From positions 1 through 64,000 of the forward strand of contig JAUNLW010000003.1 of assembly GCA_030532065.1 (NCBI GenBank): DNA of 64,000 bases, written 5' to 3'. Below are positions 44,215 to 55,152 of this stretch, piece by piece. The notes beneath the pieces were generated by a model. That model saw only the letters and a list, made by a program, of their open reading frames with translations. It was not told the DNA's origin and did no database searches. Within the stretch, counting starts at the first letter, position 1; every line of letters begins with the position of its first letter. A program made the translations under genes and the position numbers. The stretch comes from Eubacteriales bacterium (GTDB taxonomy: Bacteria; Bacillota; Clostridia; Saccharofermentanales; DTU023).

Positions 44215-44243
44215 TTTCTTTATTGTGAAATTCATGATATATT
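44215..44243 (+). promoter_or_regulatory. Possible cas3 promoter
   Basis: TTTCTT (44215-44220), 17-bp spacing, TATATT (44238-44243), about 70 bases upstream of the cas3 ATG. The upstream terminator makes a local promoter necessary, but the -35 is weak. Confidence 0.4.
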
Positions 44244-44314
44244 TAAGACTATGAGATGGATTGATTGTTTATTGTGAATAAATAAGAGGCTCTTTTAGGG
44301 GTGGGGAGGTTAGT

Positions 44315-46933
44315 ATGGCCTATTATGCGCGACCAAATGAAGATGGTAGTTGCTATCAACCACTAGCAGAACACATTCTTCAAACCGCACAGCTGGCGAG
44401 GTCCAGCGCTGAGTCGATTGGTTTAGGTATGCTCCTATTTGTATGCGGCTTGCTCCATGATTTGGGAAAATACCTGGATGAGTACCAGCGGTATATTCGA
44501 GAAGTCGGAGCTGCACTAGCAAAAGGAATTATTCCTCCACCAGCTAGAGTAGATCACGGCGTTTACGGTGCCCTTTATATCTACATATTTTGTGAAAAAT
44601 TGCTGGAATCTTCTGAAGCCTCTACTTGTACAATTAACGGTAAAGAAATATCAAAAACAGTCATTAAGCGTGCCAGAGACCTGATTACCATGTGTATCTG
44701 CTACCATCATGGTTCACTACAAGATTTCATACCGGTAGGGCGTAATGAAGAACCTGTTTTGCTAAAACGCTTGAGAAAGCTAGAGTCAACTTTGGCTGAC
44801 GAAAATAAATCTAACTGGGAACAAGTTCAAAGTAGATTTTTCAATGAAGTCTGTTCGGAGGATCGACTGCAATCCTATCTTTTCCAGGCAATCTTTGAAC
44901 TAGATACTCTTAATTCTCACATTAATGAGCAAGCCTTCGTTTGTCATCATCCGGAAAACGCAGAAGATAATAGCAATGTATACTTAAAATCTTTACAGAA
45001 CTATGCGTGGCAAATGCTGGTGCGCTATACCTATAGCGCGTTGATTGATGCTGACCGCTGGGATGCATACATTTACCAAACTAACAGTGACGAGGACTAT
45101 AATCACAGCATTGAACAACACCTAGAGTCGTATCTTCATGGCTTATACCATAAACTTGAAGAATTTAACGCGAAAAAACCAACTAGTCCATCTGAAGCAA
45201 AAGTCCAGCAAGTAAGAGCTGAGATAAGTGAAATTTGCTCTAAGGCAGCTAGCAGACATACGGGATTATATGATTTAACGGTGCCGACAGGTGGCGGTAA
45301 AACTTTTGCCAGCCTGCGTTTTGCGTTGGAGCATGCTAAATTTTTGCAGGGTACCGCTGAGGCCAAAGAGCGCATAATCTACGTTTTACCGTATACATCT
45401 ATTATCGAACAAAATGCCCATGACGTTAGAGACGCATTAAAATCCTCAAATGATGAAGTTTTGGAAGTCCACTCTCAAGTGACTTTTCAAGAAGATGGAA
45501 GTAGAGCGAAGCCAGATGAAGCAGATAAAAACACACTGGTTGATGAAACAAGATACAAGCTACTTGCTGAACGCTACAATAGCCCCATTATTTTTATGAC
45601 ACAAGTTTCATTTCTGGAAACTTTGGTAAAGGCACATGGTCAATATGCTCGCCGTTTCAATCACTTAGCAAATAGCATTATTATCTTGGATGAAGCGCAA
45701 ACACTGCCCTTGCATAGTACGTATATAAGCAATGCAGCCATAAACTGTTTAGTGTCATGCTTTAACAGCACCGTGTTGATGTGTACCGCTACTCAACCAC
45801 CGCTAGACCAGGCAATAATTCCTTTACTCTTTTCTGAAAATAAACATATTATTCCTGAATCTAACCTGGAAATAAATCAAGAGTTAAAACGTGTTGAAAT
45901 ATTAGATGTTAGGAAGGACGCAGGCTACAGTTTGGAAAAAGGAGCAGAATGGCTAACAAATAATTTCCTTTCGTCTCAGAGTGTGTTGATTGTTCTCAAC
46001 ACGAAAAAAGGAGTGAAACAATTAGCCGAGCTTTTGAAAGATCAACAGAAAGAATTTGAGATCATCTACTTAACCACTTACTTATGCGCCGCGCATAGAA
46101 AAGAAAAAATAGCCGAAATAAAACGCAAATTGGCGAATGGTGATCGGCTAATGGTAGTCAGTACTACTCTGATTGAGTGCGGTGTAAATTTGAGCTTTGA
46201 GGTTGTGGTGCGCAATTTGGCAGGACTACCCTCGATAGTTCAAAGCTGTGGAAGAGGTAATCGTAATGCGGAAAAAGAGCTAGGATATGGATATATAGTT
46301 TCCTGGAATGAAAACATAAAGAATTTAGCAAATCTGTCAGCGCAACAAACGTCCACCAAAAGTGTGATTAGATCATTACGCAAAGTTACTGATACAAGAA
46401 ACGCTGATCTATTGTCGCCATTTGCTATGCAAGAATATTATCGTAAGTATTTTATTGGAAGTATCAAGAAGAAGATGGCTTATCCTATCAACAACGGTAA
46501 TGCTTATCTTTATGAATATTTAGACTCCAGACAGATCGATTTACTAGAATTTGCTGAAAGATGGCCATTTGATTTGAAAATAGCTTTTAGATTCGTTTCT
46601 GAAAGATACGAAGTTATTGGTAACGGCGGCTCAACTCTAATTGTTCCTTATAAAGAAGGTAAATCCCTACAAGTAGAGCTATTAAATGCTCAAAACCTAC
46701 CCTTATCAGATCGCTATCGACTATTAAGAAAAATACAGCCATATACTGTAAATATGTATATAAACAAGACCCCCAGTATGAATGATGATTCATTTTATAC
46801 CAGGTTATGTAGGGAAGGTTTATATATAGTCCCTGGGTTTAATAACTTATATATCGTAAAGGACGGCTTCTACAATGAAGAATTTGGTGTGAGTGCCACA
46901 GGAATGTTTGATGATGTTTGTATTTTCGAATAA
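44315..46933 (+). CDS. cas3: Cas3 helicase-nuclease, type I-C
   Basis: The 872-residue protein has an N-terminal HD nuclease domain (His20, and GLLHDLGKYLDEYQ with His48 and Asp49, then a further His in DHGVYGALY) and an SF2 helicase with Walker A VPTGGGKT (about residue 323), motif II DEAQ (about 459) and motif VI QSCGRGNRN (about 643). It is recruited by Cascade to unwind and degrade target DNA. GGGGAGG is five bases before the ATG. Unlike many I-C operons, cas3 is cut off from cas5c by a terminator and a 292-base gap that contains an antisense crRNA-like element. Confidence 0.96.
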   Translation: MAYYARPNEDGSCYQPLAEHILQTAQLARSSAESIGLGMLLFVCGLLHDLGKYLDEYQRYIREVGAALAKGIIPPPARVDHGVYGALYIYIFCEKLLESSEASTCTINGKEISKTVIKRARDLITMCICYHHGSLQDFIPVGRNEEPVLLKRLRKLESTLADENKSNWEQVQSRFFNEVCSEDRLQSYLFQAIFELDTLNSHINEQAFVCHHPENAEDNSNVYLKSLQNYAWQMLVRYTYSALIDADRWDAYIYQTNSDEDYNHSIEQHLESYLHGLYHKLEEFNAKKPTSPSEAKVQQVRAEISEICSKAASRHTGLYDLTVPTGGGKTFASLRFALEHAKFLQGTAEAKERIIYVLPYTSIIEQNAHDVRDALKSSNDEVLEVHSQVTFQEDGSRAKPDEADKNTLVDETRYKLLAERYNSPIIFMTQVSFLETLVKAHGQYARRFNHLANSIIILDEAQTLPLHSTYISNAAINCLVSCFNSTVLMCTATQPPLDQAIIPLLFSENKHIIPESNLEINQELKRVEILDVRKDAGYSLEKGAEWLTNNFLSSQSVLIVLNTKKGVKQLAELLKDQQKEFEIIYLTTYLCAAHRKEKIAEIKRKLANGDRLMVVSTTLIECGVNLSFEVVVRNLAGLPSIVQSCGRGNRNAEKELGYGYIVSWNENIKNLANLSAQQTSTKSVIRSLRKVTDTRNADLLSPFAMQEYYRKYFIGSIKKKMAYPINNGNAYLYEYLDSRQIDLLEFAERWPFDLKIAFRFVSERYEVIGNGGSTLIVPYKEGKSLQVELLNAQNLPLSDRYRLLRKIQPYTVNMYINKTPSMNDDSFYTRLCREGLYIVPGFNNLYIVKDGFYNEEFGVSATGMFDDVCIFE

Positions 46934-46956: not shown

Positions 46957-46980
46957 GAAAAGCGGCAAAAGCCGCTTTTT
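46957..46980. terminator. Bidirectional terminator downstream of cas3 and of the antisense crRNA-like element
   Basis: AAAAGCGGC-AAAA-GCCGCTTTT is a clean hairpin. On the plus strand it ends cas3 with TTTTT. On the minus strand it is followed by TTTTCTCTTTTTT and ends the pseudo-crRNA transcript. Confidence 0.88.
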
Positions 46981-47041
46981 ACCAAGGAATATAGCTCTAT
47001 ATACAGCACTATATTTCAATCCACATCCGCTGAGCAGATGA
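46957..47041 (-). ncRNA. crRNA-like RNA with degenerate repeat, antisense between cas3 and cas5c (CreA/CreR-like)
   Basis: Read on the minus strand from 47040, CATCTGC-TCA-GCGGATG forms a 7-bp hairpin (one G-T pair) and is directly followed by TGGATTGAAAT. That 11-base string is identical to the last 11 bases of the CRISPR repeats, the expected 5' handle after Cas5c cleavage. The stem bases differ from the array repeat but still pair. After the handle come about 33 bases (47012 to 46980), the size of an array spacer, then an intrinsic terminator in place of a second repeat. An extended -10 (47048-47056) puts the transcript start at the hairpin. The first 15 guide bases match the cas5c promoter except at positions 6 and 12. 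Confidence 0.75.
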
Positions 47042-47047
47042 AACTTA

Positions 47048-47129: not shown

Positions 47130-47158
47130 TTGACATTTTTAGCTATATTATTTACAGT
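47130..47158 (+). promoter_or_regulatory. Promoter of the cas5c-cas8c-cas7-cas4-cas1-cas2 operon, overlapped by a pseudo-protospacer
   Basis: A perfect TTGACA (47130-47135), 17-bp spacing, and TACAGT (47153-47158) give a plausible sigma-A promoter starting near 47165. The minus-strand sequence from 47163 to about 47130, which covers both hexamers, is the partial match to the crRNA-like guide. The PAM position (47166-47164, minus strand) reads TTT. Confidence 0.55.
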
Positions 47159-47225
47159 ACTATAAAGAACTTGATCAACCCGCTACTTAATAAATAGCAA
47201 TAGTCGACTAGAAAGGAGACGCGAA

Positions 47226-47918
47226 TTGAAAAGTTTAAGCTTCCGGGTTTGGGGACGGTACGCTCTTTTCTCTGATCCTCTAACCAGGATCGGTGGTGAG
47301 AAATCGACGTTACAGATACCGACTTATGCGGCTCTGCGTGGGGTTTGCGAAGGAGTCTATTGGAAACCGAGTTTAATAACTGTAATTGAATCAGTGACCT
47401 TGTTGAGCCCAATTCGTACGGAAAGTAAGGGGATTCGTCCTATTAAATACAACGGTGGAAATGATTTGTCTTACTACACGTACCTAAAAAATCCCAATTA
47501 CCTTGTTAGATTCCATTATGAATTTAACCAACAAAGGCCAGAACTAAAGAACGATTGGAACATGAATAAACATCTAGCTATTTTTGAACGAAGCCTCAAG
47601 AAAGGAGGAAGGAGAGACATTTTTCTGGGCACTAGAGAGTGTCAAGCGTATGTGGAAACGGCAGATGAGAATTTAACTCCATACTATCAAGGAGAGATGG
47701 ACTTTGACCTCATGTATCACTCCATTAGTTACGCTGACGAAAATTCTGACCAGATTATGAGAGTAAATTTTTGGAGACCTCATATGCAAGATGGGTTAAT
47801 AGTTTATTGCAGACCTGAAGAATGTGAAGTTAGACGAGACATCCGTCAGATACCAAGGCGTACCTTTACTATAGGTGAGAATATGAAGGCAGTAGAGCAA
47901 GAGGAGGGTGACCTATGA
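47226..47918 (+). CDS. cas5c: Cas5c (Cas5d), Cascade subunit and crRNA-processing endoribonuclease
   Basis: The 230-residue type I-C Cas5 starts at a TTG with AAAGGAG upstream. The N-terminal strand block (KSLSFRVWGRYALFSDPL) is the Cas5 RAMP fold, and YWKP near residue 40 and KGIRPIKYNGG contain conserved Tyr and Lys residues of the processing site. In I-C systems Cas5c replaces Cas6 and cuts the repeat below its hairpin, leaving an 11-nt 5' handle. The gene overlaps cas8c by four bases. Confidence 0.94.
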   Translation: MKSLSFRVWGRYALFSDPLTRIGGEKSTLQIPTYAALRGVCEGVYWKPSLITVIESVTLLSPIRTESKGIRPIKYNGGNDLSYYTYLKNPNYLVRFHYEFNQQRPELKNDWNMNKHLAIFERSLKKGGRRDIFLGTRECQAYVETADENLTPYYQGEMDFDLMYHSISYADENSDQIMRVNFWRPHMQDGLIVYCRPEECEVRRDIRQIPRRTFTIGENMKAVEQEEGDL

Positions 47919-49918
47919 TATGGTTAAATCGCTTGGCTCAAAGTCATGATCTTATGAGCTCTATGGATAGCCTTACGTTTCTTGACCAACGTCCCGTTCC
48001 TGTTGCTCATGCAACCCAAAATGCAAACCTGGAGATCCAACTGGATTCAGATGGTGATTTTTTGGCCGCTAGAGTTCTAAAAAACCCGACAAAAAAAGAA
48101 GTAGATGCTGCTCGAAAAAATAACCAAACCTTACTTAAGGAACAGGTAACTATGATACCGGTAACGGAAGCTTCTATTTCGCGTACCAGCGGTCTGTCTC
48201 CTCATCCTTTGCATGACAAATTGATGTATGTAGCTGGTGATTACCGGCTTTACGGTGGTAATAGGTCTGGATATGAAGATTATATGCAGTTACTAAAGAG
48301 CTGGTGTGATTTTGATCCGGGAAACACCGTCATCAATTTGGTCTACCGGTATGTCAGTAAAGGTACGATGATTGAGGATCTGATCGATGACGGACTTATT
48401 TTCCAAGATGGTGGGACTGTAATACAAAAATGGCAAACAGAGTTAGGACCAAAACCACCACTATACGCCAGCGTAAATGGGAATGTTCTTGATGCTTTCG
48501 TAAGGTTTACTGTAGAGAGTGATAATGGCAATGTGATCCTGCCATGGGAAGATCCTGCCACCATTAATTCTTATATTTCTTTTGATGAGTCAAGACAGGA
48601 AAGCGTAGGGTTTGACTATGTAACAGGACAACAAAAAACTATAGCAAAAACTCATCCACAATATGTACGCTATGCTGGAGATAGAGCAAAACTAATATCT
48701 TCTAACGATACTCAAGGCTTTACGTTTAGAGGTCGTTTTGTAGATTCGAAAGAGGCTGCGCAAGTATCATATGAAATCTCACAAAAGGCCCACAATGCGC
48801 TGAAATTTCTAATCCAGAGACAGGGCCATAATGTTGGTGATCGTGTGTTCCTTATTTCTGGCTCTAGTGGCTGTCCTTTCCCGGATCCTACTGCAGATTC
48901 AAATGCGTTTAACGAGGCCGCTTCTGATGATTTAGGCAATATTAAAGAAGATACTGTAGCTACTTATAATTTTGCTTTGGATTTGGCAAACGAATTAACG
49001 GCCGCTTTAAAAGGCCTAAAGCATAAGTTTGATTCAGAAAAGAGCATCTTTGTGATGATCTTAGATGCTCCTGGACCAGGCCGACTATCCATTGTCTATT
49101 ACCGCGACTTCACTGGTACCGACAAAGATCAATTTTTCAAGAATGTAGAAGCTTGGCATAAAAAGCTATCTTGGCAACAGTCTCGCTTTAGCACAAACGG
49201 TAAGGGTGTAGTTCATTTTGTTGGAGCACCTTCCTTACAGGAAATTATTCTCGCGGCCTACGGTGTTGATCGTAGTACAGATCAAAAAGGCAGTTACTTA
49301 GAACTGGATAGTAAGTTCAGTGCAATGGTAATGACGCAACTTTTTCCACTCGTTATAGAAGGCTCTGACAGGCTACCTGATACTTTAGTCAGGCAAGCCT
49401 TTACTAACGCATGTTACCCACAAAAATATTCCACAAATAATTGGAACAAAATCCGTACCACAGCCTGCAGCCTAATAAAGGCTTATCGCAACCAGAAATA
49501 TCAAGAAAATTGGAGGTATATCGTGGACATTAACTCTAGTGACTTAACCTATAACATAGGAAGATTGCTTGCAGTGATGCAGCAAATTGAAGAAAGAGCT
49601 CTATGGATATCTAATAATGAGAAACCTCGCGCAACGAGTGCGATGCGTTACTTTACCAAAGTGATGGAGCATCCATCAGCAGCTTTCGCTCTCCTTGCCT
49701 CAAGTTTGGTGCCCTATAGATCAACTTTAGATAAAGCTGGGAATGCAGGTGCAGATTTATATGCCATGGAACAGCAAATAAGTAGTTTGATCGATCCGCA
49801 AGAATTTGCCAAAATTCGTCACCTGGATGGACGTTTCTTGCTGGGATATGATGCTCAACTATTTCACATCTACGAAGAAAATAAGCGGCGTAAAGCAGAG
49901 AAAAAGATCAAAGAGTAA
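47915..49918 (+). CDS. cas8c: Cas8c (Csd1), Cascade large subunit
   Basis: The 667-residue I-C large subunit recognises the PAM and, through an internal start, commonly also yields a small subunit (Cas11c) from its C-terminal part. The C-terminal region from about residue 545 (LTYNIGRLLAVMQQIEERAL) is the typical helical Csd1 tail. Translation is coupled to cas5c through an ATGA overlap. A methionine near residue 590 could mark such an internal start, but I see no decisive binding site. Confidence 0.93.
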   Translation: MIWLNRLAQSHDLMSSMDSLTFLDQRPVPVAHATQNANLEIQLDSDGDFLAARVLKNPTKKEVDAARKNNQTLLKEQVTMIPVTEASISRTSGLSPHPLHDKLMYVAGDYRLYGGNRSGYEDYMQLLKSWCDFDPGNTVINLVYRYVSKGTMIEDLIDDGLIFQDGGTVIQKWQTELGPKPPLYASVNGNVLDAFVRFTVESDNGNVILPWEDPATINSYISFDESRQESVGFDYVTGQQKTIAKTHPQYVRYAGDRAKLISSNDTQGFTFRGRFVDSKEAAQVSYEISQKAHNALKFLIQRQGHNVGDRVFLISGSSGCPFPDPTADSNAFNEAASDDLGNIKEDTVATYNFALDLANELTAALKGLKHKFDSEKSIFVMILDAPGPGRLSIVYYRDFTGTDKDQFFKNVEAWHKKLSWQQSRFSTNGKGVVHFVGAPSLQEIILAAYGVDRSTDQKGSYLELDSKFSAMVMTQLFPLVIEGSDRLPDTLVRQAFTNACYPQKYSTNNWNKIRTTACSLIKAYRNQKYQENWRYIVDINSSDLTYNIGRLLAVMQQIEERALWISNNEKPRATSAMRYFTKVMEHPSAAFALLASSLVPYRSTLDKAGNAGADLYAMEQQISSLIDPQEFAKIRHLDGRFLLGYDAQLFHIYEENKRRKAEKKIKE

Positions 49919-50001
49919 TCTAAACCCTCATAAACAGCAAACTTAAAGCAGTAATAACTATGGCGATACAGTATCGTCTATCAAATAAAAAGGAGAAAGA
50001 A

Positions 50002-50877
50002 ATGACTACTTTACAGAATAAAATTGATTTTGTCGGCTTGATTGATGTTAACCACGCTAACCCCAACGGCGATCCGCTAAGTGGCAATCGCCCTCGCATT
50101 ACCAGTGACTTCTTAGGGGAAATCTCGGACGTGTGTCTCAAACGAAAGATTCGTAATCGTTGGTTAGATTTAGAGCAGAATATTTTGGTACAGTCTGATG
50201 ATTACAAGAAAGACAATTTCAAGAGCATTAAAGATCGGGTAGCAGGTCAAGAAGCTCTGAAGGATTTCGAGAAAAAACTGGATGAAGATGAATTTTACAA
50301 GCTTGCCTGTGCAACTTGGTTGGATGTGCGTTCCTTTGGGCAAGTTTTTGCCTTCGGTAAAAGCGGTGATAACAGCAAAGGTGTTTCTATCGCAGTTCGA
50401 GGACCAGTAACAATTCAATCAGCCTTTTCTGTAGATCCGGTAGAACTTGAGACTTTACAAATCACGAAGAGCGTAAATAATGAAACCAATGTAAAGGGTG
50501 GAAAGAGCTCAGACACAATGGGGTTGAAGCATAGAGTAAAATATGGCCTCTATGTCCTCAAAGGATCAATAAATGTACAATTAGCGGAGTTGACTGGCTT
50601 TTCCGCGCAAGATGCTGACATGCTCAAAAAAGCTTTATCCCAATTATTTGCTAATGATGCGTCTTCAGCAAGACCTGAAGGCAGTATGGATCTGAAACGT
50701 CTTTATTGGTTTGAGCACAATTGTAAATTGGGACAATATTCTCCCGCGCAAGTTCATAGCAGTATAGTGATAAGCCACAAAGAGGGAATTGAAGTACCAA
50801 CTTGTTTTGAGGACTATGATATCAATATAAATCCACTGCCTGGCCTTGAACCGGAAATCGTTGAGCAATACTGTTAA
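50002..50877 (+). CDS. cas7: Cas7c (Csd2), Cascade backbone subunit
   Basis: The roughly 291-residue protein begins TTLQNKIDFVGLIDVNHANPNGDPLSGNRPR, the highly conserved Csd2 N-terminus (positions 2 onward; key residues N, P, N, G, D). It polymerises along the crRNA; the thumb kinks every sixth base. I use the ATG at 50002 with AAGGAG eight bases upstream; the in-frame ATG at 49960 would add 14 residues without a good binding site. Confidence 0.95.
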   Translation: MTTLQNKIDFVGLIDVNHANPNGDPLSGNRPRITSDFLGEISDVCLKRKIRNRWLDLEQNILVQSDDYKKDNFKSIKDRVAGQEALKDFEKKLDEDEFYKLACATWLDVRSFGQVFAFGKSGDNSKGVSIAVRGPVTIQSAFSVDPVELETLQITKSVNNETNVKGGKSSDTMGLKHRVKYGLYVLKGSINVQLAELTGFSAQDADMLKKALSQLFANDASSARPEGSMDLKRLYWFEHNCKLGQYSPAQVHSSIVISHKEGIEVPTCFEDYDININPLPGLEPEIVEQYC

Positions 50878-50900
50878 TTAGCAAAACACCAAAGCAAAAT

Positions 50901-51578
50901 ATGACCTGTTATAGCAACAATGAATATCTGCCACTATCGCATATCCAGCATTACGTCTTTTGTAAAAGGCAATTTACGCTGATCGCTATAGAACAATCTT
51001 GGGTCGAAAACTTTTTGACCCAAGATGGCAGATGGCTGCACGAAAACGTGCATAATGGTTTAGCTATTGAGTCTCGCGGCAATCACTTGCAGTGTCGTGG
51101 CTTGCGTGTGCAATCGAAAAGACTGGGCCTTTATGGCGTTTGTGACATGGTTGAATTTGAAAAGACCGATGACGCAAATCCCAGAGGAGTTAAGCTCTGG
51201 GGCTTTAAGGGAAATTATATTCCATCTATTGTGGAATATAAGAGAGGAAAACCCAAGCAAGGCCTAGAAGATATCGCTCAGCTGGTAGCGCAAAGTATGG
51301 CCTTGGAAGAAATGCTGAATTGCTCAATTAATGAAGCCTATTTATACTATGGCGCAACTCGGCATCGCTTACCGGTTGAATTAACTGAGGAGCTAAAAGA
51401 GCAAATAGTGATAATAAGTGCTGAAATGCATGAGCTGGTAGAAAAGGGCTATAGGCCAAAGGCAGTCTGCAGCCCTAAATGTCACGCTTGTTCTCTATAT
51501 GAAGTGTGCCTCCCGGATGTAGACCAACACAAAACCGTAGATCAATATATTAGTGAGATGACCGATTTGAGCGACTGA
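50901..51578 (+). CDS. cas4: Cas4 exonuclease of the adaptation module, type I-C
   Basis: The 225-residue RecB-like nuclease has the N-terminal Cys of HYVFCKRQF, a catalytic block with EYKRGKPKQG (Glu and Lys of the PD-(D/E)xK core) and the C-terminal Fe-S cysteines in CSPKCHACSLYEVC. Cas4 trims prespacers and sets PAM-correct orientation with Cas1-Cas2. It lies between cas7 and cas1 as usual in I-C. Confidence 0.95.
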   Translation: MTCYSNNEYLPLSHIQHYVFCKRQFTLIAIEQSWVENFLTQDGRWLHENVHNGLAIESRGNHLQCRGLRVQSKRLGLYGVCDMVEFEKTDDANPRGVKLWGFKGNYIPSIVEYKRGKPKQGLEDIAQLVAQSMALEEMLNCSINEAYLYYGATRHRLPVELTEELKEQIVIISAEMHELVEKGYRPKAVCSPKCHACSLYEVCLPDVDQHKTVDQYISEMTDLSD

Positions 51579-51589
51579 GGGAAACCTAT

Positions 51590-52624
51590 ATGAGAAAATT
51601 GCTAAATACTCTGTATGTTCAACATCCAAACTATTATTTATCTCTAGAGCAAGAAGCAGTAGTCATTAGTAAGGATAGAGTGACTATGGCGAAGTTCCCT
51701 TTATTGAATTTTGAGAGCATAGTAACTTCATCTCAGGTTTCAATTAGTCCCTATTTACTTGAGGCTTGTATGGAGAGGGGCATAAGCGTTAGCTATCTGG
51801 ATCGTAATGGAAAATTCCTTGCCAGAGTGAGTGGGAAAAATATTGGCAATGTTTTACTTAGGAAGAGTCAGTATAGGTACTCTGATGATAAAACTGTCAG
51901 CAATCAAATCGCGAAATATATGATTCTGGGCAAAACTTACAATCAGCGTTGGTTGCTGGACCGTTATTGCCGTGATCATCCACTTTCTATCGACCTTGAC
52001 TCTGTAAAAAAATGTTGCGGTAATTTGCAGGCTGCCTATCCTCGTATAAGAGAATGTGCTGATTTGGACATATTGCGTGGTATAGAGGGAGAGCTGGCAC
52101 AGCAGTATTTTGGCGTGTTTGATTCTTTAATTCTAAAAAATAACGATTTTTTTGCTTTTAAAAAAAGAACTCGAAGGCCGCCTTTAGATCCAGTTAATTC
52201 TGTAATGTCCTATCTTTACACAATTTTGTATCACGAATCGGCCAGCGCCTTATCTTGTGTAGGCTTAGATCCCTACGTAGGATTTTTGCATCGTGATAGA
52301 TCAGGCAGGATGAGCTTGGCCTTAGACCTAATGGAAGAATTGCGCGCGCCATTGGTTGATAGATTGACGCTTAGCCTCATAAATCGTGGACAGTTACAAG
52401 CAAAACATTTTGAAAAGCAAGCAGCGGGAGCGGTTTTAATAACTGATATGGGTCGCAAAATCATAATAGAAGCTTGGCAGCAGAGAAAACAAGAACTTGT
52501 TATGCATCCATTTCTTGAGAATAAGATTGAATGGGGTACAGTGCTGTATGCTCAGGCTCTACTTTTGGCGCGTTATATACGTGGTGATTTAGACGATTAC
52601 CCTCCAATTTTATACAAGAATTAA
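51590..52624 (+). CDS. cas1: Cas1 integrase, type I-C
   Basis: The 344-residue Cas1 has an N-terminal beta domain and a C-terminal helical catalytic domain. Conserved features include the Glu in LRGIEGELAQQYF, PLDPVNSVMSYLYTILYHE, and the His and Asp of VGLDPYVGFLHRDRSGRMSLALDLMEELR. It integrates new spacers at the leader-repeat junction of the array at 53113. Confidence 0.96.
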   Translation: MRKLLNTLYVQHPNYYLSLEQEAVVISKDRVTMAKFPLLNFESIVTSSQVSISPYLLEACMERGISVSYLDRNGKFLARVSGKNIGNVLLRKSQYRYSDDKTVSNQIAKYMILGKTYNQRWLLDRYCRDHPLSIDLDSVKKCCGNLQAAYPRIRECADLDILRGIEGELAQQYFGVFDSLILKNNDFFAFKKRTRRPPLDPVNSVMSYLYTILYHESASALSCVGLDPYVGFLHRDRSGRMSLALDLMEELRAPLVDRLTLSLINRGQLQAKHFEKQAAGAVLITDMGRKIIIEAWQQRKQELVMHPFLENKIEWGTVLYAQALLLARYIRGDLDDYPPILYKN

Positions 52625-52627
52625 ATA

Positions 52628-52921
52628 ATGTACATTATAGTGTGTTGCGATGTAAAAACGGAGTCTGCTGCTGGTCGTAAACGTTTACGACGAGTAGCCA
52701 AGGCTTGTGAAGCTTGTGGTCAACGTGTGCAAAATTCTATCTTTGAATGCCAGCTAGACTCTGTACAAAAAAGAGCATTGGTAGGGAAGTTGTTAAAAAT
52801 TATTGACCAAGACGAAGACAGTTTAAGGATATATAATCTAGGGAAAAATTATCGACAGAAAATTGAACATTGGGGAACGAAAAATGTGCCTGATTTAAGT
52901 AAAGATACTATCATTTTCTAA
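52628..52921 (+). CDS. cas2: Cas2, type I-C
   Basis: The 97-residue ferredoxin-like fold protein begins MYIIVCCDVKTESAAGRKRL with the conserved Asp8 and has the segment VQNSIFECQLD. It forms the Cas1-Cas2 integration complex. The ATG follows cas1 by three bases. It is the last cas gene; the leader starts directly after. Confidence 0.96.
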   Translation: MYIIVCCDVKTESAAGRKRLRRVAKACEACGQRVQNSIFECQLDSVQKRALVGKLLKIIDQDEDSLRIYNLGKNYRQKIEHWGTKNVPDLSKDTIIF

Positions 52922-53112: not shown

Positions 53113-55152
53113 GTCGCACCCCTCGTGGGTGCGTGGATTGAAATCATACTATCTAATCTCTCCTTATATACAATTTGTCGCACCCCTCGTGGGTGCGTGG
53201 ATTGAAATACGAAAATTAAACGAAAGTTGAAGGGTACAAGAGTCGCACCCCTCGTGGGTGCGTGGATTGAAATAGCCGTGCATGGAAGGAAAAACCAGCA
53301 GAAGCGTCGCACCCCTCGTGGGTGCGTGGATTGAAATTATATAGTGCCTAAAATTGACTGTAAAGTTACGTCGCACCCCTCGTGGGTGCGTGGATTGAAA
53401 TCAACTGCATCAAAAACCGTTAAAGGTGGCGTCGTCGCACCCCTCGTGGGTGCGTGGATTGAAATATAGAAAGCATTTTCCTCCGACGTAAGCATACGTC
53501 GCACCCCTCGTGGGTGCGTGGATTGAAATTGCTGGGCAGGCGCTTCGCCCTGTCTCCCATTGTCGCACCCCTCGTGGGTGCGTGGATTGAAATAACTGTC
53601 GGAAGCCTATCGGAAGTATTTACCCGTCGCACCCCTCGTGGGTGCGTGGATTGAAATTCCCAACGTTTACGCCCATGTTTTGCTCCTGGGTCGCACCCCT
53701 CGTGGGTGCGTGGATTGAAATTCCAGCTTGAGCTCCCAGCGGTCATAAGCCCCGAGTCGCACCCCTCGTGGGTGCGTGGATTGAAATTCAACAGCGCACT
53801 GTAGCCCTGTAGCAGTTGCGTCGCACCCCTCGTGGGTGCGTGGATTGAAATACAGACTTGACCTTGCCTGCTTCCTCTAGGGCAGCTGTCGCACCCCTCG
53901 TGGGTGCGTGGATTGAAATGCCTAAGCTCGCCATTGACGCCATGCTTAACTGTCGCACCCCTCGTGGGTGCGTGGATTGAAATATGGATGTTGTAAATCA
54001 CGGAAAGATCTTTAGCGTCGCACCCCTCGTGGCTGCGTGGATTGAAATGGACTAGCCAAGGCGTAACATCAGCTAACGCCCTGTCGCACCCCTCGTGGGT
54101 GCGTGGATTGAAATGACGATGGGCCGCAGGCGGGACAGCTTGTAACGTCGCACCCCTCGTGGGTGCGTGGATTGAAATCTTTCCGGGAGCTGCACCTCCC
54201 TTACTTGTTGAGTCGCACCCCTCGTGGGTGCGTGGATTGAAATGTTTAACGATCCAAGTACGCTGAAAGATACCGGTCGCACCCCTCGTGGGTGCGTGGA
54301 TTGAAATTTTATGAGTTCGGGTAATATTTTCTTGCCCAGGTCGCACCCCTCGTGGGTGCGTGGATTGAAATGCGATTTGTTCTAGGTACGGATCTAGCGC
54401 TGTACCGTCGCACCCCTCGTGGGTGCGTGGATTGAAATTCGGTATAGCTCAGGATCATCTGATAGATCCCGGTCGCACCCCTCGTGGGTGCGTGGATTGA
54501 AATAAATCGGCGTTGAGTTGCACTCGAGGGCATATAGCGTCGCACCCCTCGTGGGTGCGTGGATTGAAATAATATACAAAATCCTTAAAAAGCGTTGAAA
54601 ACGTCGCACCCCTCGTGGGTGCGTGGATTGAAATACTGTAAATTTGTGCAAATTAGGCTTCCAACTATGTCGCACCCCTCGTGGGTGCGTGGATTGAAAT
54701 AATCTAGACGTCCAGGCCGCACTCGCTAATGCTGTCGCACCCCTCGTGGGTGCGTGGATTGAAATATTAGAGAGACCTCGCTTTGGGAGTTTGACCGCGT
54801 CGCACCCCTCGTGGGTGCGTGGATTGAAATGCACAAACACACCGTAAAAGATGTATCGTTTTGTCGCACCCCTCGTGGGTGCGTGGATTGAAATATGGCT
54901 TTCGTCCATGCAGCCACACAAGACGAGGTCGCACCCCTAGTGGGTGCGTGGATTGAAATATCTGCCCCTGATAGACCTTCTTAAGGGCACAAGTCGCACC
55001 CCTCGTGGGTGCGTGGATTGAAATTGTAAAAAAGACCGCAGACCACATGGATAAGCGTCGTACCCCTCGTGGGTTCGTGGATTGAAATGAAGATGGTAGC
55101 CTTGTTAATCAAGCACTTTCGTCGCACCCCTCGTGGGTGCGTGGATTGAAAT
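53113..55152 (+). CRISPR. Type I-C CRISPR array, 32 repeats and 31 spacers
   Basis: The 32-base repeat begins GTCGCACCCCTCG and ends GGGTGCGTGGATTGAAAT, a standard I-C repeat with a GCACCC/GGGTGC hairpin. Repeats start at 53113, 53177, 53242, 53306, 53370, 53434, 53498, 53562, 53626, 53690, 53756, 53820, 53888, 53952, 54017, 54083, 54147, 54212, 54276, 54340, 54407, 54472, 54539, 54603, 54669, 54734, 54799, 54863, 54928, 54993, 55057 and 55121. Spacers are 32 to 36 bases and none look alike. Variants are at 54017 (one stem change), 54928 (loop change) and 55057 (two changes); the last repeat at 55121 is intact. Orientation, with cas2 and leader at the left, agrees with the ATTGAAAT end. Confidence 0.98.

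Follow-up and report, generated by a model that had tools for sequence, protein, structure and literature searches.

A solitary diverged repeat between cas3 and cas5c as a probable gene for a Cas-regulating RNA in type I-C CRISPR-Cas

The gap between cas3 and cas5c in a 64,000-nucleotide stretch of DNA from a Eubacteriales bacterium (the window) carries, on the minus strand, a solitary and strongly diverged copy of the CRISPR repeat, which very probably belongs to a CreR-like gene (Cas-regulating RNA) of type I-C whose product guides Cascade to repress cas5c to cas2. At the level of sequence, the element is made up of a pseudo-repeat, a guide and a terminator, is accompanied by a target with a PAM, and recurs across loci. 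The pseudo-repeat had been noticed in an initial annotation that named no target. A guide part, a terminator and a site in the promoter lay beyond that annotation, and it is on account of these three that the element is given a function.

The locus is a complete type I-C locus, with cas3, cas5c, cas8c, cas7, cas4, cas1, cas2 and an array of 32-nt repeats (GTCGCACCCCTCGTGGGTGCGTGGATTGAAAT), and the pseudo-repeat lies inside the 292-bp gap from the end of cas3 to the start of cas5c (Table 1). The operon predicted to be repressed, cas5c-cas8c-cas7-cas4-cas1-cas2, begins with cas5c; in the window, cas3 stands outside this unit.

Table 1. Coordinates of the element, its predicted target and the surrounding type I-C genes in the window
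Feature	Position	Strand	Remarks
cas3	44315..46933	+	TIGR01587 and TIGR01596 above cut-off; element lies downstream
Intrinsic terminator	46958..46979	-	hairpin of 9 pairs and T-rich tail; closes the predicted RNA, with no second repeat
Pseudo-spacer	46980..47012	-	33 nt, within the spacer lengths of the array
Pseudo-repeat	47013..47044	-	32 nt, hairpin and 5' handle of the predicted guide RNA; GTTTCATCTGCTCAGCGGATGTGGATTGAAAT
Handle	47013..47023	-	11 nt, TGGATTGAAAT, identical to array repeat; 12 nt identical with the preceding G
Hairpin	47024..47040	-	7 pairs by RNA folding; 5' arm 47040-47034, loop 47033-47031, 3' arm 47030-47024
Predicted sigma-70 cas5c promoter	47130..47158	+	-35 TTGACA 47130-47135, 17 nt, -10 TACAGT 47153-47158
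Target (protospacer) of pseudo-spacer	47147..47163	-	read from 47163
PAM	47164..47166	-	TTT
cas5c	47226..47918	+	TTG start; TIGR01876, E=1e-62
cas8c, cas7, cas4, cas1 (type I-C), cas2	47915..52921	+	TIGR01863, TIGR02589, TIGR00372, TIGR03640, TIGR01573
CRISPR array	53113..55152	+	repeat with same handle as pseudo-repeat

The initial annotation had described a 3' handle unchanged over 11 bases, and the identity to the array repeat was confirmed. Of the 33 copies of the corresponding 12-mer (GTGGATTGAAAT) that the 1.6-Mb genome contains, 32 belong to the array and one to the pseudo-repeat, and since the latter is the sole copy outside the array, the handle of the window element is not there by chance. 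The accompanying description of a stem that is mostly changed yet still forms seven pairs also held upon RNA folding: the pseudo-repeat stem (CAUCUGC/GCGGAUG, one of the seven pairs being U-G) closes a loop of 3 nt and folds with -7.8 kcal/mol, seven pairs around a 5-nt loop give -12.5 kcal/mol for the array repeat, and five of the seven pseudo-repeat pairs differ from those of the array. Numbered outward from the predicted Cas5c cut, which on the model of Cas5c work would fall between 47024 and 47023, pairs 1 and 7 are the same as in the array, both bases are replaced in pairs 2, 3, 4 and 6, and a single base in pair 5; the 5' arm of the pseudo-repeat sits 2 nt further in, so that there is no position-for-position compensation relative to the array. 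At least seven contiguous pairs ending at the cut site arose in 1,244 of 100,000 shuffles of the window copy, the fold of which has a z-score of -1.54. The probability of a chance hairpin in this single copy is thus not negligible, and the case for selection on the stem rests on the comparative sets described below and not on the window copy. Being repeat-like, located outside the array but within the cas locus, and with its 3' handle kept, the element answers to the description of a CreR, whereas the single repeat followed by a terminator, with no second matching repeat, sets it apart from a canonical mini-array, in which at least two repeats surround a spacer.

Positions 1-15 of the pseudo-spacer (47012-46998) match the minus strand at 47163..47149 in 13 of 13 bases, positions 6 and 12 excepted; these two mismatch the target and no position past 15 matches. 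The target scores 10/10 in the seed and 3/5 in the extension (p=0.002, the floor of the test), a score that was equalled by none of the 1,892 real array spacers from type I-C loci run against the window gap. It covers the -10 element of the predicted cas5c promoter, itself weak evidence alone, as one such promoter was found and 1.3 were expected in shuffles. Limited complementarity to a cas promoter beside a PAM is a further trait of CreRs and recurs in the second set of loci below; the TTT of the window is less usual than TTC across the targets. A terminator scan of the gap returned one terminator, against 0.1 in shuffles, and the minus strand yielded no clear promoter from which the predicted RNA could be transcribed. 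The pseudo-spacer can also fold on itself (AUAUAGUG..AGCUAUAU) within the predicted 99-nt RNA.

Transcription, processing, binding, repression and competition are what we infer from this arrangement. A short RNA would be transcribed on the minus strand and stop at the terminator. Cas5c would recognise the hairpin and cut at its base, leaving the 11-nt handle; the small RNA bound to Cascade would start with UGGAUUGAAAU, the 5' end being at UGGAUUGAAA, or at CGGAUUGAAA in the comparative locus L074 (which, like L059 and L086, is from Sporolactobacillus or Mesobacillus), followed by the pseudo-spacer, and Cas5c, Cas7 and Cas8c would assemble on it as on a crRNA. Guided by the pseudo-spacer, Cascade would then reach the promoter of cas5c and pair over about 15 bases, covering the -10 element. 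Going by the precedents of CreA and CreR, the match is presumably too short to license Cas3, and the consequence would accordingly be repression of cas5c-cas2 instead of cutting. The outcome would be negative feedback on cas5c-cas2, and owing to the weakness of the hairpin, crRNAs from the array would be able to compete for the Cas proteins, relieving repression.

Two sets of loci were searched for comparable elements. The first consisted of 80 type I-C loci from named genomes, loci of the family and order, and the window, giving 103 gaps from 84 loci, each lying either ahead of cas3 or in the interval that separates it from cas5c, with a 10-nt handle as the search key and at most one mismatch allowed. 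The 75 handle hits comprised 38 array copies, which were dropped, and 37 solitary ones in 33 of the 84 loci, when about five hits, 0.3 of them exact, were expected in base-shuffled gaps. These rule-based 37 replaced the 34 elements of an earlier, hand-picked pass (24 at p<=0.01), which had included L034 and L038 by eye and omitted some weak hits. Each pseudo-spacer was scored against its own gap at positions 1-5 and 7-11, with 13-17 as tie-break and positions 6, 12 and 18 onward left out, and a target was called at p<=0.01 against 500 real spacers as control, the PAM not being used in the selection. A target was found in this way for 27 of the 37 solitary repeats, with TTC as PAM in 21 and TTT in 6 (0.5 and 0.8 expected). 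The second set came from an even draw of 393 genomes across the class, which held 66 Cas5c places including the window; 60 were taken, and 56 loci were left after removal of one duplicate and three without usable gap. Here, 24 of 35 solitary handle hits, in 23 of the 56 loci, had a target at p<=0.01, with TTC in 18, CTC in 6 and no other PAM. Over both sets the 51 targets bear TTC (39), TTT (6) or CTC (6), counts that are not all independent because L183 and L185 have a pseudo-repeat in common and L138, L139 and L141 resemble one another, while TTC stands in only one of the 21 target-less hits (that one among the 10 of the first set, the other 11 belonging to the second). Loci without any solitary handle numbered 51 of 84 in the first set and 29 of 56 in the second.

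Matches between guide and target in the 51 elements are concentrated at positions 1-5, 7-11 and 13-17 and are close to chance at 6, 12 and 18 onward: positions 13-16 match in 45-48 elements and position 17 in 37, against 20, 13 and 9 at positions 6, 12 and 18. In type I Cascade every sixth base is flipped out and unpaired, and the match pattern is the footprint expected of such a complex, with pairing confined to about 17 bases. The element is followed by a terminator-like hairpin in 20 of 27 cases in the first set and 18 of 24 in the second (2.7 and 2.8 in shuffles). Overlap of the target with a predicted sigma-70 promoter, seen at 9 of 27 loci with 5.7 expected, is not significant. Some solitary elements were located between cas3 and cas5c and others ahead of cas3. 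Our reading is that the element tracks the operon promoter, the scan having covered only the region ahead of cas3 at loci whose cas3-cas5c gap is shorter than 60 nt. At five of the 27 first-set loci (L016, L021, L025, L056 and L063), target and cas gene are on opposite sides of the element, and between target and element there is room for an undescribed toxin RNA. L173 has two solitary elements; the first lies ahead of cas3, the second between cas3 and cas5c, and both have a separate TTC target. L177, L180, L183, L184, L185 and L188 are related to one another; they have a handle of the TGAGTTGAAA type (TGAGTAGAAA in L180) and the PAM CTC at every target, and their stems vary by paired changes.

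Of candidates with two mismatches in the handle, 62 were tested and three reached p<=0.01. The one in L010 looks real; that in L080 is an antisense match to an array. In the window itself, a degenerate handle (TGGATTGATTG) followed by TTTATTGTGAA lies upstream of cas3 (44216-44278, plus strand); the 11-mer TTTATTGTGAA recurs 49 nt upstream with TTC before it (p=0.002, one of the 62 tests), there is no hairpin, and the element is possibly a second, decayed guide for cas3, or chance.

Cas5c was found in 7 of 38 genomes of the window's family, and six loci besides the window, together with two of the order, were compared. No close orthologue of the window element was found among these eight loci, and the comparison of homologous gaps was therefore made across genera. 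The only other solitary handle in a cas3-cas5 gap of the family (L008/L097) differs in both stem and guide; in L098 a solitary handle precedes cas3, with a guide that matches 10/10 and 4/5 and the PAM TTT, and L096 is a weak candidate with a best target match of 9/10. L096 also carries a long minus-strand open reading frame upstream of cas5c, perhaps an inverted cas3, beyond which, at 859, its solitary handle is found with a terminator-like hairpin.

Stem conservation was assessed in the elements with a cas-promoter target, against a null in which 5' arms were swapped between loci. The mean number of contiguous pairs at the cut site was 4.67 in the first set, against 3.11 in the null (sd 0.20), and 5.0 in the second, against 3.39 (sd 0.22); at least five pairs were present in 16 of 27 and 15 of 24 elements, with 3.5 and 4.3 expected. 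Among the first six pairs at 17 loci with known array repeat (102 pairs), 36 had both bases changed and still paired, 12 were changed on one side, 28 were unchanged and 26 fell outside the contiguous stem. Identical in handle and pseudo-spacer, L183 and L184 differ at pair 4, where A-U stands against G-C, and their near relative L188 has G-U at this pair. An alignment of eight Bacilli-type loci whose element lies between cas3 and cas5 shows G-C or A-U at pair 2 and C-G, U-A or U-G at pair 3, while pair 5 is A-U, G-C, C-G or broken. Folding energy per element is a weak signal (mean z -0.93, 11 of 27 below -1), and the hairpin is weaker than that of the locus's own array at all 17 loci, with means of -4.8 and -12.3 kcal/mol. 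The hairpin thus keeps its form while its bases change, though not universally. The initial annotation had proposed selection to keep a Cas5c substrate, to be judged by compensatory as opposed to stem-breaking changes in homologous gaps. The stems above the null in both sets and the compensatory changes in L183, L184 and L188 speak for the proposal, the stem-poor elements (at most three contiguous pairs in 6 of 27 and 2 of 24) in part against it, and on these comparisons selection for hairpin and handle as a Cas5c-type substrate is supported.

A second proposal, that the repeat diverged to avoid recombination with the array or spacer insertion beside it, found no signal: over 21 nt at the 17 loci, the pseudo-repeat is 31% identical to its own array and 30% to the arrays of other loci, when arrays are mutually 48% identical. 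In the available text of the CreTA study of type I-B (PMC9458426), degenerate repeats are argued to recombine less and to lose bases used in adaptation, and repeat degeneration is discussed as limiting recombination; with the idea already in print for type I-B, such a benefit is plausible for type I-C as well. Drift under the constraint of hairpin and handle nevertheless explains the divergence equally well, since identity to the own array is no lower than to foreign ones. A lone repeat would be neither copied nor kept alike in the manner of array repeats, hairpin and handle would be the sole constraint, and selection against recombination or spacer insertion would be unneeded; the hairpins merely weaken, in 17 of 17 loci. 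We incline, without great confidence, to drift as the whole cause of the divergence, an account that leaves the CreR-like function of the element untouched.

Natural guides outside defence have precedents with which the element can be compared. With Cas9, tracr-L effects autoregulation through a short match near a promoter, repressing without cutting. The scaRNA, as covered in the available text of PMC9458426, is likewise a natural non-defence guide used with Cas9, with a short match near a promoter and repression without cutting, which for the window element is predicted; both, however, belong to type II, with Cas9 and a different RNA. CreRs (Liu et al. 2023, Cell Host Microbe), known here through the accessible parts of reviews (PMC12737573, PMC13131331, PMC12948488), are closer: they are reported to autorepress types I-B, I-E and V-A (PMC13131331), with a scope given as type I and V-A broadly (PMC12737573), and share with the window element a degenerate repeat and a limited match to a cas promoter, together with a crRNA-like RNA beside cas genes and autorepression, both here predicted; they have no toxin, which is probably true of the window element as well. 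The window element differs from those of I-B, I-E and V-A in belonging to type I-C, with no Cas6, a substrate that Cas5c would bind through its hairpin, and a single repeat with a terminator. No type I-C CreR was found in the literature searched, the primary CreR paper (Liu et al. 2023) and its tables excepted. In CreA of type I-B CreTA, the degenerate first repeat similarly keeps the handle bound by Cas5 and loses other bases, and the promoter match is partial, but the target is the promoter of a toxin; haloarchaeal repeats have no conserved hairpin and hence no stem constraint, while the I-C elements keep the stem, so that the hairpin constraint is a feature that the I-B work, in its available text, did not see (PMC9458426).

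The same resemblance raises the alternative that the RNA is the CreA of a CreTA pair, which would repress a small toxin gene and make the cell depend on Cascade without regulating cas genes. The anatomy of degenerate repeat and partial promoter match is shared, and the elements of L016, L021 and L025 are co-oriented with cas3 and have their target upstream, which is the creT-creA layout. In the window, however, only 60 nt separate the target from the start of cas5c and a ribosome site precedes the TTG, leaving little room for a toxin, though a toxic RNA would still be compatible with the sequence, and the predicted target promoter leads directly to cas5c; we hold this reading to be improbable.

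A decayed, functionless relic of an old array would account for repeat-like sequence in a CRISPR locus and for the strong divergence of the stem, but hardly for a perfect handle, a terminator, a guide match equalled by no control spacer and a PAM at 51 of 51 comparative targets; it is disfavoured and we hold it to be very improbable. Scarcely any weight falls to a prophage remnant acting as an RNA anti-CRISPR (a Racr, or solitary repeat unit) that would sequester Cas5c or Cas7. In the text available for these (PMC10651486), a lone CRISPR repeat likewise acts as a small RNA, in type I-C as well, where one Racr was validated; Racrs are nevertheless encoded by phages or plasmids, apart from cas genes, to inhibit Cas proteins and have no promoter guide. 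The window element, whose RNA is predicted, lies inside the cas locus, between cas3 and cas5c, its guide matches a cas promoter with a PAM, and elements of this kind recur in the cas gaps of many hosts.

The CreR-like reading is thus the one that we retain for the window element, and a wider statement, to which we give an even chance, can be built upon it: type I-C systems may carry a widespread autorepressor guide class of their own, present in about two in five loci when the class is sampled evenly, with a hairpin that Cas5c forces to be kept while its bases turn over by paired changes. With hairpins weaker than those of the array, the RNA may lose Cas5c to array crRNAs and thereby gauge crRNA supply, and the minority of elements with a CreTA layout may guard a toxin. 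If so, many type I-C systems would repress themselves, and expression of the cas genes would rise with array supply or under anti-CRISPRs that disable Cascade. The element would also serve as a clean natural test of the RNA needs of Cas5c, as the sequence of the hairpin varies freely while its form and the handle stay.
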